Shown here in pieces: positions 16,863 to 37,546 of a stretch of 64,000 nucleotides of DNA. Source of the stretch: an uncultured Ignavibacteria bacterium (GTDB taxonomy: Bacteria > Bacteroidota > Ignavibacteria > Tepidaquicellales > OLB5); the NCBI GenBank assembly GCA_937873695.1, contig CALMYL010000006.1:415185-479184 (forward strand). Reading direction: 5' to 3'. The translations under genes and the position numbers were made by a program. The notes beneath the pieces were generated by a model that saw only the letters and a list, made by a program, of their open reading frames with translations, did not search any database and was not told where the DNA came from. Every line of letters begins with the position of its first letter. Within the stretch, counting starts at the first letter, position 1.

Positions 16863-17681
16863 TCACTTTACCTGAAAATAGATATACGGTGTGCCGTTTT
16901 GTGTAATGCACCTATTGTTATAATATATAGAATCATATACCTTCCATCCGCCCGGCATATCAAAATTGATTTTCCCTTTATAGATACCGCCGCCAATGTA
17001 AACAGGATTTTCATTTCCTTCAGATGCATGGTTCAGGGAATCAAGTTTTGGAGTCAGAAACATGGAAGCTGAATTTACCTGCGTAAAATTTACAAAATCG
17101 GGAGATTCATGCAGCAGGCATGAGAAATCATTGATTCCCCTTGACGGCTCCTGCGGAGCAGTCATGGTAATCAAATAACTAAGCTGCGCGCCTAAATCTG
17201 TAAAAATTTTAAATTTTGTTCTTGAATCCCATCCTACATCAAAATTTGCAGAATCAACACTGATCATGTCGTTATAATTATAGTAACCATACCATCGGCT
17301 TGATGTATCTGAAGGCATCAGCATTATAATGTAACCCGTGAACATCCCAAGCGCCGCATCGTAATTGTATTGAGGTTCTACCGGTGTTGCATGGAAATCT
17401 GTTGAAGTGAAATGAAACATCTTCGCATAAAATTTAACATAGCCGGAATTCTTTTCATTGCCGGATTCATATACTTTAAACCCAACTTTGTTGTATCCGG
17501 TCATCAAAGTATCGTTGCCTGTTGTCCATACTTCAAATCTCAAATTCCCGTCTTCCGCGGTGATTATTTTCTGATACACCTCACCCTGAGGGCTATTAGT
17601 TAAGTTATCATGACCGTTACCACAGCCAGTAATGCAGAGAGAAATAATGATTGTTATATACAGAAAGTTGTTCATGTTCAT
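16863..17681 (-). CDS. Hypothetical lipoprotein
   Basis: A 272-residue protein whose signal sequence ends in a lipobox (SLCITGC, Cys at residue 20), so it should be lipidated and membrane-anchored. After a short linker it forms two similar beta-rich halves. The first contains LRFEVWTTGNDTLMTGYNKV and MFHFTSTDFHATPVEP, and the second ends in a strand motif FDMPGGWKVYDSIYY. The pattern of a strand, a His-containing MFH segment and a final MPGGW-type strand resembles YtkA/FixH-like domains, but the match is weak and I do not assign a function. It is a single gene converging on the LamG gene. Confidence 0.75.
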   Translation of the reverse strand: MNMNNFLYITIIISLCITGCGNGHDNLTNSPQGEVYQKIITAEDGNLRFEVWTTGNDTLMTGYNKVGFKVYESGNEKNSGYVKFYAKMFHFTSTDFHATPVEPQYNYDAALGMFTGYIIMLMPSDTSSRWYGYYNYNDMISVDSANFDVGWDSRTKFKIFTDLGAQLSYLITMTAPQEPSRGINDFSCLLHESPDFVNFTQVNSASMFLTPKLDSLNHASEGNENPVYIGGGIYKGKINFDMPGGWKVYDSIYYNNRCITQNGTPYIYFQVK

Positions 17682-29953: not shown

Positions 29954-31456
29954 TCATAAATTTTTCAATTCGCCGGCTTTTTCAATCAGCCAGGATTTAT
30001 GCGGCAGCATACTTGCTGCAGCCAATTCGTTCCTTATTTCGTTATTCTTCCTGGAATTCCCGCTTTCTGCCTTTGCTTTCAATATTTCCCTGTAAAAATT
30101 CAGGAATCTCAGATAGTTATTTATTTCGTTTTTCCTTATTTTTTTGTTTGAAATAAGAAAATGCGAAAATGAATCGATGAGTGAATACGCTTCTTCAATG
30201 TAGTTCAGTTCATAATAGAGCTTTAACATCAATACTTTTACAGGAAGCTTAAGCCTGAATAGTTTTAATTTCACCTTTGAAAGCGAAGCAAGTGATCTTT
30301 CGAATTGTTTTTTGCTGAAAAACAATTCTGCGAATGAATACCCTGTCATATCTTGAGAGTATTCCGGCGAGATCTGCTCGCCATATTTCCGCAGAAATTC
30401 CGCCGCCCAGTCGCTTTCGTTAAGCTGCAGAGCTGTCTGGAAAATAATTAAAAAATTATTTACATCCATATATTGCGCTGTATATGATGTATATAGATCA
30501 AGTGATGCCGCTCTTTTTATTATTTCAAAGTTTATTCTTTGATATTTTTCATCGTTCAAAGAAGTTCGTTTCCTGTTGCAGCATGTCGTAAGCATTAAAT
30601 GAAGGTTCTGCAGTTCATTTTTCCCGAACATATCCGAATACATCCCTACATAGTCGTTCATTTTGTTGAAATATTTTTCATCTTTCTCATCCAGTATGGT
30701 TATCATAAAACACAGGTATATCTTAAGAACTTTCAGCAATCGGCCGTTTTCGGCAACTGCTTCTCCGTTGTTTTCATTAACTTCAATAAATTCGAGTATC
30801 TTCCTGTAATTAATATTTCTAAGATACTCAAAAACTATGTTTTCTTTTAATGGTATGTTGTATGACTGGCTTACCTGGTGCAGTATCTGGTAAACATGAG
30901 AAAGCTCAACAAACGAACTGAAAAGCTGTACTTCACCCCACTCATATCTTTTTTCAAGTATCGGTTCCTGAATATTAGAAAGAAAATAAAGCTGGTGCCA
31001 TATCAGATTAGTATCCTCTTTGTTATAAATATACTCGCCGCCAATTAGATTATTTTTGTCCAGCACGCTTTCAAGTACTGCCAGATTTTTTCGCGCCAAT
31101 CCAAATAACCTGCGTTCAGTCATGTCATCAATCGTGTATTTCTTCATCTCTGTATCGTTTCTTTCAAACAGAGATACAGCAAGGTACTTTTCTAACAGGC
31201 TGTATAATGTTGAAAGAAGGTAACGGTATGTTTTTTCATCATACTTTCTTGAACCGTAGATCTTTCTGAACAGTGCCTCAGGGCTCGTTCTTCGGGCGGT
31301 AATATCAAATTCAGGATATAATGCTGCTATTAATTTAAAAAGTTTTATGACGCTTTCATTGGTATTAAAATAATCTGAACTGATGAAGCGCCTGAATTGC
31401 TTTAATTCAGCCTTATCAAACGTTTTTAATATCTCTGTAAGTTTTTTTAGAAGCAT
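29954..31456 (-). CDS. Uncharacterised alpha-helical repeat protein (copy A)
   Basis: A 500-residue soluble protein with no signal peptide. It is predicted almost entirely helical, with TPR-like helix pairs. The N terminus LLKKLTEILKTFDKAELKQF (residues 2-21), then FRRFISSDYFNTNESVIKLF and LYSLLEKYLAV, belong to a recurrent but unnamed family seen in Ignavibacteria and other Bacteroidota (recall, not a search). It is paralogous to the 513-residue gene at 33990-35531, and each copy lies back to back with a rightward T9SS propeller gene. No catalytic motif is visible. A scaffold or regulatory role tied to the exported neighbour is speculation based on repeated gene order. Confidence 0.8.
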   Translation of the reverse strand: MLLKKLTEILKTFDKAELKQFRRFISSDYFNTNESVIKLFKLIAALYPEFDITARRTSPEALFRKIYGSRKYDEKTYRYLLSTLYSLLEKYLAVSLFERNDTEMKKYTIDDMTERRLFGLARKNLAVLESVLDKNNLIGGEYIYNKEDTNLIWHQLYFLSNIQEPILEKRYEWGEVQLFSSFVELSHVYQILHQVSQSYNIPLKENIVFEYLRNINYRKILEFIEVNENNGEAVAENGRLLKVLKIYLCFMITILDEKDEKYFNKMNDYVGMYSDMFGKNELQNLHLMLTTCCNRKRTSLNDEKYQRINFEIIKRAASLDLYTSYTAQYMDVNNFLIIFQTALQLNESDWAAEFLRKYGEQISPEYSQDMTGYSFAELFFSKKQFERSLASLSKVKLKLFRLKLPVKVLMLKLYYELNYIEEAYSLIDSFSHFLISNKKIRKNEINNYLRFLNFYREILKAKAESGNSRKNNEIRNELAAASMLPHKSWLIEKAGELKNL

Positions 31457-31585
31457 TGTCCCGCTTTATTTTCTGAGGGAAATTACTTGAATTTTAAATT
31501 AAAGTAAATGCCGTTTTCATAGAGATTTCAGTCATTTTCAGCTCGTTCATAGTAAAGAAATCACTCTAATCTTTCAGAAAACTTC

Positions 31586-31617
31586 TTTGTCAGGGTGCAC
31601 ACTGCCGGGTATCTTTG
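31586..31617 (+). promoter_or_regulatory. TTTG-N20-TAnnTTTG promoter of the RHH regulator
   Basis: TTTG (31586-31589), 20 nt, then TATCTTTG (31610-31617) are both perfect consensus matches. A GTGCAC hexamer (31594-31599) lies in the spacer and a double copy lies just downstream, so a repressor bound there would cover the promoter. Confidence 0.75.
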
Positions 31618-31628
31618 TAACATAAAAA

Positions 31629-31640
31629 GTGCACGTGCAC
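31629..31640. promoter_or_regulatory. Perfect 12 bp palindrome, candidate operator
   Basis: GTGCACGTGCAC is two abutting copies of GTGCAC, about 5-15 nt downstream of the predicted start site and 18 nt before the regulator's ATG. With the spacer copy at 31594-31599 it gives three half-site clusters over the promoter. Confidence 0.65.
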
Positions 31641-31657
31641 GTTATTTAGAACCGAGT

Positions 31658-31855
31658 ATGAGAAAGAAACAGAATAACATAACTGAAGCGGTTGCAAAGG
31701 GATACAGACTGAAACCCGAAACACACGAATTGGTTGAGAAATTAAGCATTAAGATTAAGGGTACCAAAAACGATGTTATTAGCAGAGCCTGCAGAATGTT
31801 TGAAAGTTCAGTTAACAGATCAATCAAAAGAAAAAACAGCAAAAACATAATCTAA
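31658..31855 (+). CDS. Small ribbon-helix-helix-like DNA-binding protein
   Basis: A 65-residue basic protein. ATG 31658 is preferred because an earlier in-frame start would place the coding region over the promoter and palindrome. The central segment has a beta-strand (KGYRLKPETHELVEKLS, about residues 13-29), then helix, a GTK turn and helix (NDVISRACRMFES). This is the size and layout of ribbon-helix-helix repressors, and the C terminus is Lys/Arg-rich. The GTGCAC palindrome directly upstream suggests autoregulation. The T9SS propeller gene follows after 53 nt and is probably under the same promoter, so the regulator may control expression of that exported protein (inference). Confidence 0.7.
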   Translation: MRKKQNNITEAVAKGYRLKPETHELVEKLSIKIKGTKNDVISRACRMFESSVNRSIKRKNSKNII

Positions 31856-31908: not shown

Positions 31909-33834
31909 ATGAGACACTATTCATCCATTAAAACCAGGAGTTCACTGTGCTTTATGCTCTCTGCCGTACTTTTGTTTCTTTTCACATTTAACTTAAGGCT
32001 AATAGCACAGGATAAATCCGGGGTAGATATCCCCGCGCAGTTCAACTATTCAACCAGCAATACCGGAAGTACATCGGAGCCAATGATGACTTCTCTTCAG
32101 CCCGGCGAACAGCAGTTTGCCCCGGAAAAAAGATCGTTACTTGACCAGTTAAGGAATGCAAGACTGAATAATGACCTTGTTAAGGCAGAGGAGCTTCGTA
32201 CAACTCTTGATCAATTGGACGGTTTAACAGCATACGTACCTCAGGAAAACAATGATCCTTCGAACAATCCTATAAGGGAAAAGTTTGTAACCATGAATGT
32301 TAAACCTCCGTTTGTGTACGAAGGTGATTTTTCGGTTTCAACAATTTCATCCGCGGGAATTTGGGCGGTAGCAACAGCAAGCTCTAACCGTTCAACAGCT
32401 ATCTTTGCCGCTACTACAGAGTATGTTAGCGGGGCAGGTGATAATGTTAAAATATTTGTATCTTATAATGGCGGCGCAACATGGAACCTGAAGTATACTT
32501 ATAACGGTTTTGCCTCAGGGGTTGATTGCCGTGCTGGCGAGCTTGATATTGAACCTATCATCAGCGGAAGCGATACTTTAGTATATTGTGCAGTTGGAAT
32601 AAATTATAATAGTCATGCCTGGTCAACAATGATTGTTGCAAATATAGGTACCGGGGCAGGCTCCGGTGCTACATGGAGTTTTGGAGGATATTTGAGTGCA
32701 AATGTTAATTATTATAATCCAAAAGTAACAAGCGATAATACGACTTATTCAAATGCGTCTTATATTTATATGACCTCCTCATTTGATTCGGCCGGCACTA
32801 CACGCTATACCACCAGGTATCTTCTTGTTACAAGTCCCTTTACAACTTCACCAACTTACATCTACAGGCAGCCCAATGCTCCTAACGGTTTCTGGTGGCA
32901 ATCAAATGGACTTACTCCGAATACTTATCTGCATCAGGATATATGCTATTATAATACAGGGAGTGTTGACAGAATTTATACTGTTTATAATCATGCGGGT
33001 ACCGCAACAGACAAAAGAGTTTACATAGCATGGAGCAATGATTATGGTGTAACTGTTGGCGCGGGCAATACGCTTACACTTACTGAAACAAATAATATAC
33101 TTAGTGCAGTTTGCGCCGCAAACGGGGGAATCGGCAGGCAAACAGTAGCAATAGGATACAGGATGCTTTATTCTGCCGGTGACTGGGATTACCGCATACA
33201 ATATTCACCCTCAGGCGGAACGTCTTCGGGAGTTTTTACGGGTCAGTATATGGAATATACAAGCGATACATCTAAGCTTATAAGTCTTCAGGCTGTTGAT
33301 CTTGCTAACGGCAAGTTTGTAACAGGGAATGCTATGAATGGCGGTGAGCACTACTACAGATCGTTTAACGGAACCGCTGTGGGAACAATATACCAGACAA
33401 ACAATATACCGGGTGATTTCAGTTACGGCGGATGCCGTGCCGGCTACTGGAACTCAACGAATCCTGATTCATGTGTAGTAGTATGGTCGCCAAACCTTGG
33501 CGCAGGAGCGCTCTGCTCACGGCTGATCTGCAGTACCGTTGGGATACAAAATAACGGTAATGGTGTGCCATCTGAGTTTTCTTTAAAGCAAAATTATCCT
33601 AATCCGTTCAATCCGGTGACTAATATCAAATTCAGCATACCAAGATCATCATTTGTAAAGATCACAGTGTTCGATATTACAGGAAAAGAGATCGCAAAAA
33701 TTGTTAATGAAAATATGAACGCTGGTACTTACACGGTTGATTTCAATGCATCTAACCTGGCTACCGGAGTTTATTTATACAGGATTGATGCCGAAGGATT
33801 TACTGATGTGAAGAAAATGATGCTGATAAAGTAA
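31909..33834 (+). CDS. Exported sialidase-fold propeller protein with T9SS sorting domain (copy A)
   Basis: A 641-residue protein. The signal peptide ends near residue 36 (LRLIAQDK). A short charged helix (LLDQLRNARLNNDLVKAEEL, about 76-95) precedes a beta-propeller-like region with BNR/Asp-box motifs such as VSYNGGATWNLKY. The type A sorting domain is at about 556-641 (KQNYPNPFNPVTN). The sialidase Arg triad cannot be placed with confidence, so enzymatic activity is not claimed. It is a paralogue of the 610-residue protein at 35714, sharing the N-terminal helix and propeller. It probably lies in one transcript with the small RHH regulator, 53 nt upstream. Confidence 0.87.
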   Translation: MRHYSSIKTRSSLCFMLSAVLLFLFTFNLRLIAQDKSGVDIPAQFNYSTSNTGSTSEPMMTSLQPGEQQFAPEKRSLLDQLRNARLNNDLVKAEELRTTLDQLDGLTAYVPQENNDPSNNPIREKFVTMNVKPPFVYEGDFSVSTISSAGIWAVATASSNRSTAIFAATTEYVSGAGDNVKIFVSYNGGATWNLKYTYNGFASGVDCRAGELDIEPIISGSDTLVYCAVGINYNSHAWSTMIVANIGTGAGSGATWSFGGYLSANVNYYNPKVTSDNTTYSNASYIYMTSSFDSAGTTRYTTRYLLVTSPFTTSPTYIYRQPNAPNGFWWQSNGLTPNTYLHQDICYYNTGSVDRIYTVYNHAGTATDKRVYIAWSNDYGVTVGAGNTLTLTETNNILSAVCAANGGIGRQTVAIGYRMLYSAGDWDYRIQYSPSGGTSSGVFTGQYMEYTSDTSKLISLQAVDLANGKFVTGNAMNGGEHYYRSFNGTAVGTIYQTNNIPGDFSYGGCRAGYWNSTNPDSCVVVWSPNLGAGALCSRLICSTVGIQNNGNGVPSEFSLKQNYPNPFNPVTNIKFSIPRSSFVKITVFDITGKEIAKIVNENMNAGTYTVDFNASNLATGVYLYRIDAEGFTDVKKMMLIK

Positions 33835-33956: not shown

Positions 33957-33990
33957 AAAAAGAGACTTCCTGATAGAAGTCTCTTTTTAT
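33957..33990. terminator. Bidirectional terminator
   Basis: A perfect 13 bp stem, AAAAAGAGACTTC (33957-33969) with GAAGTCTCTTTTT (33976-33988), serves both convergent genes. Confidence 0.92.
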
Positions 33991-35531
33991 TAAACAGCTT
34001 TCTTTTTTAAGATATTCAGCATACCGGTATGCGTAAGCTTGCTTTCAATCCACGAAACAAAATCAAACTGCTCAAGAATATTCTTTTCAAATTTGTCATT
34101 TGATATTTTCTCTATTGAGTATTTCAGTTCTTCGTATAACCCAAGTCTTTGCTCATCGCTGCTGTAATTCATTGCGCGTGTTATAAAATCAAGTATCAGC
34201 TTCTCGAATTTGAATATTCTGTTAGATCTTTCAAGGAATCTGCGGGTTGATCTTACTGTGTATTCCAGCAGGTCATAATTGCCTGCCTCAAAATGCACTA
34301 TCAGGCTTCTTATTCTGGCGAATATATTCTGCTCGGGATCAATTTTGGGATTGGAAACATTCAGTATACGGTTCAAATAAAAAATACATCTGTCAAAATC
34401 TTTCATCAAAAAATATGCATATGCCATCCTGTTGTATATAGAAAGCTTCCTGTTCTCGCTGATGGATTTTTTGAACTTTTCGAAACCAGATTCAATACTG
34501 CCCGTAATACTTTTAAGGCTGTCTGTTTTCAGAGATCTTATCGCGTAATTCAGCTCCAGATCACTTGTGAGCAAAAATATCCTTGATTGGATCTCAATGT
34601 ATTCCTTTTTGTTTTCAAACTGCTTTGAAAACAGCTTGAGTTTCCTCATGTAAATATCAAAATCAGAATGTTTGCCGGTAATTACACAGGCATGAAGATA
34701 ATTATTCAACGCAAGAACATAACTTCTCGGGTTTTCACGGATGTACTTCTTATCACTTTCCATCAAAAGAACAAGTTCTTTGCGGTATTTAAGCCACTGC
34801 GGACGGTCATCAATAATCCTGTAATAATGACCGAGTACTGTGTAAAATTTGAATTTTGAATCAAAAGTCTTCGCGCAAGATACATCTTGCATCAGATGAT
34901 TGTTGACAATGCTGTTCAGTTTTTCCAGGTCTTTTTCGTTGCGTATGTTCCCGGTTTCTTTTGTGAACATAAACATATCATTATATATGATGTGATATTG
35001 TTCGTTAATGCTCAGGTTCTCAAGATTTTCAAGGGTATTCCTTTTCAGGGCCGCATAATTCACTTCATCATTGTTGGCATAGTAATCTGTCGCAAGGCTT
35101 GTCAATGCCTTGTTGTATAGCAGCGCCAGATAAAAAGGCTTGTCATTTTCTCTTGCCATTGCAATAGATTTATTAAGAAGGGTTCTGAATTGTTTGTATA
35201 GCCCCTTTTCAAACAGGACATTCAGCTCTATCATCATCATATTCAGTTTTGATACCGCGAATTTTTCCGCGTGGTAAGAACTTAGAGCCTTAAGTATCAG
35301 ATTAAAAAGGTAATTTTTCGTTGAATAGAGTTTTTCAGCGAATTTTTCACCTTTAAATCTCACTTTTATCTGCGGTTCGTCATATTCGCTAAGAGCGTCT
35401 ATCGCATCAAAGAGCTTTACATATGTATTTTTTTCACCGATCGTATGTTTTGATGCAAATTTCTTAAAATAACCCTTTTCTGATTTGCTCATAGATTTGA
35501 TCAGCTGGAACAGATCATCTGATGTTCTCAT
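33990..35531 (-). CDS. Uncharacterised alpha-helical repeat protein (copy B)
   Basis: A 513-residue soluble helical protein, paralogous to the gene at 29954-31456. They share an N-terminal pattern of a hydrophobic helix, SKSEKGYFKKFAS (here residues 15-27), a KLF helix, and a K-Y-K-rich helix before LKALSSYHAEK. Later helix pairs are TPR-like (FYLALLYNKALTSLATDYY; RMAYAYFLMKDFDRCIFYL). There is no signal peptide, membrane segment or catalytic motif. Its start is 182 nt from the divergent start of the second T9SS propeller, repeating the arrangement of copy A. The function is unknown. Confidence 0.8.
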   Translation of the reverse strand: MRTSDDLFQLIKSMSKSEKGYFKKFASKHTIGEKNTYVKLFDAIDALSEYDEPQIKVRFKGEKFAEKLYSTKNYLFNLILKALSSYHAEKFAVSKLNMMMIELNVLFEKGLYKQFRTLLNKSIAMARENDKPFYLALLYNKALTSLATDYYANNDEVNYAALKRNTLENLENLSINEQYHIIYNDMFMFTKETGNIRNEKDLEKLNSIVNNHLMQDVSCAKTFDSKFKFYTVLGHYYRIIDDRPQWLKYRKELVLLMESDKKYIRENPRSYVLALNNYLHACVITGKHSDFDIYMRKLKLFSKQFENKKEYIEIQSRIFLLTSDLELNYAIRSLKTDSLKSITGSIESGFEKFKKSISENRKLSIYNRMAYAYFLMKDFDRCIFYLNRILNVSNPKIDPEQNIFARIRSLIVHFEAGNYDLLEYTVRSTRRFLERSNRIFKFEKLILDFITRAMNYSSDEQRLGLYEELKYSIEKISNDKFEKNILEQFDFVSWIESKLTHTGMLNILKKKAV

Positions 35532-35659
35532 CGACTTCTATAAACCCCCGTCCTATTTTCTACGAAAATATGCAAAAAATGAACATTTAACTGTGTAATT
35601 AGCGGTATTGACTTATGAAATATTCAAAAGAATGATTTTTTAAGCAAATTAACTGAATA

Positions 35660-35667
35660 TATATTTG
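35660..35667 (+). promoter_or_regulatory. -7 element of the second T9SS propeller gene
   Basis: TATATTTG matches TAnnTTTG, 46 nt before the start codon. The upstream TTTG partner is not evident. Confidence 0.45.
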
Positions 35668-35713
35668 CAGTAATTAGGGGGAATTAATTAAACTAATATA
35701 AACGGAGAACAAA

Positions 35714-37546
35714 ATGAAACGATTCAAACTTCTTGCAGTTTTAACTGCATTTTTATTCAGCGGGATTCTTTCCGCACAAGACGAGATCGGCTCCTCGCCG
35801 AGTACTAATCAGCCTACGGCCATAGAACAGCAGCGTGGTCAGTTCAATGAAGGCGACAGGTTTTACCCGGCGTACCTTGATGACCAGCTTAAAGCTGCCC
35901 AGGAATCAGGCAATGAAATTGAGGCTAAACGAATTATGGAACTGATGGATAGTAAGATTCCAGCCGTGAATAAATTCAACGCTATGGATCACAAAGCTGG
36001 GCTTGAAGTTCCGGTGCAGACCGGATCTGTTCAGCCGCCATTCAATTCTGACTGGTATAGCAATGATGTAACTGTTTACTCGGGTTCAGTTAAGTTTGGT
36101 GACCCGTATTTCAGACAGGTAGATATGAAAATGGGTGAAGACGGTAACATGTATGTTGCATATAACCGCGCCCCGGTATCCGGAACAAACGGCAGAATTG
36201 ACGTTTACAGGTCATCTAACGGCGGTGCGTCGTGGGTATATACAAACGGTATTCAGTATGCCGGAAGCTATATAGGTACTGTTAGCTTGCTTGTAGAGTT
36301 AAGAGACGGTGGCGGAAATCCTGATTCAACAAGGATCTTTGTATTCTACACTGTTTCATCAACAAGTAACAACGATGGAGCAACAATGTCTTTTGGCAGC
36401 TGGAGAAGGAACGGATCCGCCTGGTACGCAGGCAATATAGCTTCTCCGCCGGCAGGACAGGAGTATTCCTTTGCATCTGCAGTAAGCGATGGTGCATTCT
36501 ATACAACAGCAACCTGGATCGGCGTTATGTGCACAGAATCAAACAATGCACTGACAACCACCAATAATTTTAAATATTACAGAAGCGTTAACTGGGGTCA
36601 GACCTGGACAGGAGTTACATTTTCTTCAGGATGGAATGATTTCTATCCAAGTGCTGAATTAAGACCCGGTTCAGGCTCATCAAGTGATTCAGTGTGGATT
36701 GCCGTAGAAAGACGTTTCAGCGCTACAAATTATGAGATCAGGATAATCAGGACACCATGGACACCTGTGGCATCAAATAATACATACTTTGTTACTTCAG
36801 GCGGTTCAGGTGTAAAATATGAAAAACCGTCACTTACTGTTAAACAGAACAGGTCATGTGACTCTGCTATGTTTACAGTAACCAAGAACGGTGTTTCATA
36901 CTATTGCCCCACAGTAAACGGCGGAGGCGCATGGAGCGTTGACTTTACACTTGGCGGTACAAGTAACGGCAATAACAAAGCATTTACCTGGTGTTCGTCA
37001 AATCCAAATGGTAACGAGCCTTTCAATGGAATCTGGGTATCCAGTGATGGAGACTCAATTAACTTAAGAGTTGGCGGAAGGATTGGAAGTCTTGGAGCTA
37101 CTGTATACAAAAGGAACAGTAATACTGCATCAACATCCGTATCGCCAACTTGTATGGTTTATTCACCTGCACCCACTACCAGTTTATGCGCATTTTCATA
37201 TGCCGGTTTTGGGCCAACCAATATATATGCAAATCAGGAAGGTTTGATTACAGGTATTAATCAGAACAATACAGAGGTACCTGAACTGTATTCTTTAAGC
37301 CAGAATTATCCTAATCCGTTCAATCCGGTTACCAATATCAAGTTTTCAATTCCCGCAAGCGGAAATGTTAAACTGACAGTATTTGATATTACCGGAAGGG
37401 TAGCTGCTGTTCTTCTGGATAAGAATATGAATGCCGGAAATTATACCGCTGATTTTGATGCGTCGGGGCTTTCGAGCGGTATATACTTCTATACTTTATC
37501 TTCAGGTAGTTTTACCGATACCAAAAAGATGATTCTTGTAAAATAA
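35714..37546 (+). CDS. Exported sialidase-fold propeller protein with T9SS sorting domain (copy B)
   Basis: A 610-residue protein. The signal peptide spans residues 1-21 (LTAFLFSGILSAQ). A charged helix (LKAAQESGNEIEAKRIMEL, about 56-74) is the counterpart of that in copy A. Asp-box-containing blades follow (VYRSSNGGASWVYT; YRSVNWGQTWTGVT), and the type A sorting domain occupies about 525-610 (SQNYPNPFNPVTN). The start ATG 35714 follows CGGAGAAC by a few bases. Enzymatic residues are not assignable, and adhesion or binding is equally possible. It probably forms a functional pair with the divergent helical protein, as in copy A (inference). Confidence 0.87.
   Translation: MKRFKLLAVLTAFLFSGILSAQDEIGSSPSTNQPTAIEQQRGQFNEGDRFYPAYLDDQLKAAQESGNEIEAKRIMELMDSKIPAVNKFNAMDHKAGLEVPVQTGSVQPPFNSDWYSNDVTVYSGSVKFGDPYFRQVDMKMGEDGNMYVAYNRAPVSGTNGRIDVYRSSNGGASWVYTNGIQYAGSYIGTVSLLVELRDGGGNPDSTRIFVFYTVSSTSNNDGATMSFGSWRRNGSAWYAGNIASPPAGQEYSFASAVSDGAFYTTATWIGVMCTESNNALTTTNNFKYYRSVNWGQTWTGVTFSSGWNDFYPSAELRPGSGSSSDSVWIAVERRFSATNYEIRIIRTPWTPVASNNTYFVTSGGSGVKYEKPSLTVKQNRSCDSAMFTVTKNGVSYYCPTVNGGGAWSVDFTLGGTSNGNNKAFTWCSSNPNGNEPFNGIWVSSDGDSINLRVGGRIGSLGATVYKRNSNTASTSVSPTCMVYSPAPTTSLCAFSYAGFGPTNIYANQEGLITGINQNNTEVPELYSLSQNYPNPFNPVTNIKFSIPASGNVKLTVFDITGRVAAVLLDKNMNAGNYTADFDASGLSSGIYFYTLSSGSFTDTKKMILVK

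Follow-up and report, generated by a model that had tools for sequence, protein, structure and literature searches.

A lineage-specific ribbon-helix-helix protein family and its putative GTGCAC operators before exported-protein genes in Ignavibacteria

Two modules with divergent genes

The window, a 64-kb stretch of DNA from an uncultured Ignavibacteria bacterium, holds two neighbouring modules, in each of which a reverse-strand gene diverges from a forward-strand gene for an exported protein. In the first module, the divergent gene (29954-31456, reverse strand) encodes a 500-residue TPR-like solenoid protein. The forward strand carries the gene for a 65-residue protein (31658-31855; ATG at 31658, stop codon ending at 31855), which we propose to be an autorepressor of the ribbon-helix-helix (RHH) type. 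About 50 bp after the RHH gene begins the gene for a 641-residue exported protein (31909-33834, forward strand), which is the proposed regulated cargo. No terminator-like site was found between the RHH gene and the cargo gene, and the two are probably co-transcribed. The cargo protein carries a type A sorting domain of the type IX secretion system (T9SS) at residues 563-638 (PF18962, E 8.8e-12; TIGR04183, E 1.5e-10). A reading of this DNA from the sequence only had described it as a T9SS propeller. The T9SS part of that description holds, but the propeller is not established, as the BNR match reaches E 0.31 only.

The second module (33990-37546) serves for comparison and lies outside the proposed switch. 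It consists of a divergent gene for a protein of the BT_2802_fam type (33990-35531, reverse strand) and a gene for another exported T9SS protein (35714-37546, forward strand). Neither a small RHH ORF nor a GTGCAC sequence is present between the divergent genes of this module, in agreement with the earlier remark that the RHH gene occurs in the first module only. This anatomy is consistent with one of the two neighbouring exported proteins being switchable and the other not.

A Bacteroidota-type promoter precedes the RHH gene and can be read directly on the forward strand. The -33 element TTTG (31586-31589) is followed after 20 nt by the -7 element TATCTTTG (31610-31617). The whole promoter, TTTG-N20-TATCTTTG, spans 31586-31617, as the sequence-only reading had it, and fits the Bacteroidota consensus TAnnTTTG (PMC6414381). 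Three copies of the strand-neutral hexamer GTGCAC, the putative operator sites, start at -15, +19, and +25 when counted from the first base of the -7 element. Site 1 lies in the promoter spacer at 31595-31600, one base away from the 31594-31599 first given for it, and its offset is the same in the orthologues of genomes G011 and G005. Sites 2 and 3 are abutting palindromes that form the 12-bp palindrome GTGCACGTGCAC at or after the expected start site (31629-31640, the position reported before). This palindrome is kept in six orthologous promoters, one of which shows a single substitution, although much of the sequence around it has diverged. The sequence-only reading had proposed a search for GTGCACGTGCAC elsewhere; the copy described here is the single exact one in the 64-kb window and in the whole 3.78-Mb genome.

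Counts within the window prove nothing alone. GTGCAC by itself is not enriched there (8 seen, 8.9 expected), and the promoter pattern TTTG-N18-22-TAnnTTTG has 10 matches against 3.4 expected. The idea was therefore tested by comparison across homologues.

The intergenic DNA ahead of the -33 element, toward the divergent gene (31480-31570), also contains an inverted repeat, AGATTAAAGT ... ACTTTAATCT. It is partly conserved in the orthologues and not in the wider homologue set, and is possibly a site for another regulator.

The 65-residue protein and its family

The ORF of 65 residues is under purifying selection, which points to its being translated: its dN/dS against two orthologues is 0.02-0.09, a rough range since dS is near saturation. 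In the orthologues of G011 and G005, in-frame stops lie a few codons upstream of its ATG. The protein is predicted to form a beta strand at about residues 14-19 (KGYRLK) and two helices (residues 20-33 and 37-62). The AlphaFold model has a confident core (pLDDT about 92) with the helices placed after an extended KGYRLK segment; the ribbon strand itself is not formed in this monomer model. The top structure matches (Foldseek and VIA-align) are mostly RHH proteins, namely CopG, Arc, PutA, TacA1, and MazE6. Their Z-scores of 4.5-6.2 fall in the range of common arrangements, and the best Foldseek E of 0.79 is not significant for so short a model, with the top list still mostly RHH. These modest individual scores are due to the small size of the protein.

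The family shows no significant match in Pfam and NCBIfam, and a PDB sequence search with it returned chance matches only. However, PHROG 3887 (transcriptional regulator) matches 11 of 53 family members (E 3e-5), and PHROG 7325 (CopG-like) matches one. The core of the family reads K/R-G-Y-R-L-x-x-x-T-H and is followed by two helices. G15, Y16, R17, L18, and T22 are invariant across the 53 sequences. An RHH fold is thus supported by the model, its structure matches, and the PHROG hits, which agrees with the initial description of the first gene as encoding a 65-residue RHH-like protein.

Small autoregulated RHH proteins are often antitoxins, and TacA1, MazE6, and AtaR are among the structure matches. 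It is nevertheless very improbable that the 65-residue protein is the antitoxin of a toxin-antitoxin pair, as the genes that follow it in the family encode exported proteins and not small toxins. A gene with a T9SS sorting domain is found in 58 of the 65 readable RHH operons, and most of the others open with a signal-peptide-like sequence. A recurrent family of exported-looking proteins starting with ...QNITNTLGTSGTFTIKDG... is present at L029, L086, L090, and other loci. It has no T9SS signal, and is often first in RHH operons with a short T9SS protein next.

By profile search, the RHH family is present in 21 of the 44 genomes of the order. These include every one of the 13 genus genomes, at 2-10 copies each, members of both other sampled genera of the same taxonomic family, and six genomes from a second one, where one match is weak. 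Among 395 sampled genomes of the phylum, clear matches were obtained in this genus only, and four others had E 0.002-0.008. A search with a narrow alignment of the RHH family gave 12 named loci, and the named relatives are "Ignavibacteria bacterium" MAGs and OLB5, Candidatus Tepidaquicellales. By these sequence searches, the family is lineage-specific and confined to one order of Ignavibacteria. The same cassette recurs at most homologues and is composed of a divergent TPR-like gene, an operator-bearing promoter, the RHH gene, and exported genes. Judged by gene order, the locus in the window is one of many copies of this cassette, with a RusR-like TPR gene, a GTGCAC promoter, an RHH gene, and exported genes.

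GTGCAC sites and the divergent RusR-like genes

Hexamers were counted upstream of 75 RHH homologues, over the 200 bp that precede the GYRL codons. The expectation for each hexamer was taken from flanking DNA, and 200 sets of dinucleotide shuffles served as the control. GTGCAC was the top enriched hexamer: 132 copies were seen where 1.5 were expected, and no shuffled set had more than 8. At least one copy is present at 69 of the 75 loci, and at least two copies at 53. The significance of GTGCAC comes from this enrichment across homologues and not from the window. Within the genus, 64 of 66 RHH loci have the hexamer. Of the two others, one is truncated at a contig end, and the RHH gene of the second, G003:C343, has been separated from its promoter. 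Outside the genus, four homologues lack a perfect GTGCAC, one of these being degenerate. The 13 genus genomes contain 34 close pairs (GTGCAC-N0-8-GTGCAC), 31 of which immediately precede an RHH gene; a control search with the pattern reversed matched once.

The arrangement TTTG-N18-22-TAnnTT(T/C)G is found at 61 of the 75 homologous loci. Relative to the first base of the -7 element, GTGCAC starts mainly at -19 or -12, that is, in the promoter spacer, or at +13 or +25. The number and spacing of the sites vary (6, 7, 11-12, 20-25, 32, and 44), and 14 of the 64 loci with a divergent partner have at most one perfect GTGCAC in 200 bp. We considered and rejected the possibility that site spacing forms a code linked to the RHH clades. 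Similarity was marginally higher between pairs of the same class (difference -0.026, more extreme than any of 2000 permutations), but this was no longer seen after removal of close relatives, and shared descent alone may account for it.

These counts and positions bear on two other explanations. The first is that the repeats are due to chance or form an RNA-level leader element. The count of GTGCAC in the window would fit it, but 132 sites do not arise where 1.5 are expected, and the many sites at -19 to -12 precede the start site, which places them outside the RNA. We consider this explanation hardly credible. The second is that the RHH protein does bind GTGCAC but activates, or has an architectural or dual role, with repression coming from the divergent TPR protein or another factor. 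Some RHH factors, such as AmrZ, both activate and repress. Part of the family has a single site in the spacer (-19 to -12), where a DNA-bending factor might help. Most sites, however, coincide with or follow the expected start site (+13 and +25), which is hard to reconcile with activation, and we regard this explanation as unlikely.

At two natural loci, the operator also precedes a cargo gene without an RHH gene of its own. At G003:C343 (L099 near 3041; near 17540), an operator pair lies before a cargo gene with a signal-peptide-like start, 4 kb from an RHH gene. At G010:C91 (L080, 1235-1560), a GTGCAC operator and a cargo gene form a module that adjoins an RHH module. At both loci, the RHH gene is thus a few kilobases off. 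This arrangement points to the cargo promoter itself as a target, which may be reached in trans.

The divergent proteins are related to RusR, which we take to be BT2802. The protein encoded at 33990-35531 matches the NCBIfam BT_2802 model with E 6.4e-58 and 197 bits, below the curated cut-off of 550 bits. The protein encoded at 29954-31456 has no direct match to this model. Its distant homology to the former was found by an iterative search (E 1.6e-25), and by these sequence matches it is a relative, not a member, of the BT_2802/RusR family. A divergent gene for a protein of about 490 residues lies within 600 bp of 64 of the 75 RHH genes. The RusR-like model is an all-helical TPR-like solenoid, and its structure matches are without a DNA-binding domain, an absence that proves little. 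Its match to Rap proteins is weak and is taken as a lead only.

The genome from which the window comes (3.8 Mb) has about 38 near full-length RusR-like genes, most of them divergent to exported genes. This paralogue family (for example, 29954-31456 and 33990-35531 in the window, and L151-L180) is large and unexplained. At L165, L168, L171, and L174, the RusR-like modules start, in place of an RHH gene, with proteins of 56-111 residues that by eye resemble one single fibronectin type III domain. At L156, L160, and L177, RusR-like genes are divergent to proteins of about 60-70 residues with a signal-peptide-like start.

GTGCAC could instead be bound by the divergent RusR-like protein or another regulator, with the RHH protein being a bystander or a protein antagonist. 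A RusR-like gene adjoins most RHH loci, and the distances of the RHH and RusR-like proteins correlate (Mantel r 0.43, permutation maximum 0.12), as this explanation would expect. However, an RHH gene is present at 4 of the 30 RusR-like loci examined in the genome of the window, and GTGCAC is found on the divergent side at exactly those 4 and near none of the 26 without RHH. This exact coincidence means that GTGCAC accompanies the RHH gene and not the RusR-like gene. GTGCAC also occurs where no RusR-like gene adjoins (G002:C1:717291), and the solenoid model counts slightly in the same direction. A RusR-like binder is therefore quite improbable. The upstream regions of RusR-like genes in general share no motif beyond promoter elements. 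The near one-to-one linkage across paralogues and genomes supports GTGCAC as the putative operator of the RHH family, the role proposed for it in the window at the outset.

A predicted autorepressor of exported proteins

Taken together, it is very likely that the RHH protein is an autorepressor that gates an exported protein, with dimers on GTGCAC placing a T9SS-cargo operon under negative autoregulation. We infer DNA binding and repression by the RHH protein; the sign, repression and not activation, is deduced only from where the GTGCAC sites lie. The 65-residue protein would act as a dimeric RHH transcription factor, whose beta ribbon with the invariant K/R-G-Y-R-L would read GTGCAC. One dimer would occupy the spacer that separates the -33 and -7 elements, and another two, bound next to each other on GTGCACGTGCAC at the start site, would block RNA polymerase. 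This block would repress the RHH gene jointly with the T9SS-exported protein encoded after it. The divergent TPR-like protein would be the obvious candidate for relieving repression.

A broader reading is more tentative, with a fairly low probability. A lineage-specific, expanded cassette of three parts would control both surface and secreted proteins. Its divergent RusR/Rap-like TPR protein would sense a signal and relieve the RHH repressor sitting on GTGCAC, leaving each cell to produce a selected part of the T9SS cargo. Since one half-site is common to all RHH paralogues, cross-talk between paralogues within a genome is possible, and the spacing of sites may tune which repressor acts where.

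The closest known parallel is CopG, an RHH autorepressor that binds TGCA palindromes in its own promoter (PMC6678401). Like CopG of pMV158 at the copG-repB promoter, the Ignavibacteria protein is a tiny RHH protein encoded by the first gene of an operon with TGCA-core palindromes in its own promoter (PMC6678401, PMC6607859), and CopG is among the best structure matches of its model. Unlike CopG, which controls plasmid replication, the family is chromosomal, multi-copy, and found in Ignavibacteria only, and its targets are T9SS exports. The two share about 20% identity over the aligned part, and the family differs in promoter type and has several site spacings. By analogy, the family would work like CopG, but it is separate and lineage-specific. 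The predicted strand-helix-helix order, a two-stranded ribbon reading DNA, and operators of repeated sub-sites also recall Arc, PutA, and MetJ, but no sequence relation to these repressors was detected and the operator sequence is different.

RusR has been reported as a regulator of ribose scavenging at the ribose locus of Bacteroides thetaiotaomicron (PMC12596196). The divergent proteins in the window are its distant relatives, but their many copies mostly lie beside exported genes and not a ribose operon. We know of no RHH partner of RusR in Bacteroides. Our literature search found no paper joining RHH proteins and type IX secretion, nor the RHH family, its confinement to a single order, or the systematic association of this family with RusR-like proteins and T9SS cargo. 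RHH autorepressors with TGCA-core operators are already known; what appears to be new is a lineage-specific RHH family and its linkage to RusR-like proteins and T9SS.

Little is known about how individual T9SS cargo proteins are controlled in Bacteroidota and their relatives. In the present case, more than a dozen genomes show a small regulator side by side with its putative operator and target operon. The pairing of RHH and GTGCAC at almost all of about 75 related genes very probably reflects a real self-regulating switch for secreted proteins. The outcome is a testable regulon in uncultured Ignavibacteria, together with GTGCAC as the predicted recognition sequence of an RHH family that lacks annotation, and the cassette gives a link to the poorly understood RusR/BT2802-like proteins.
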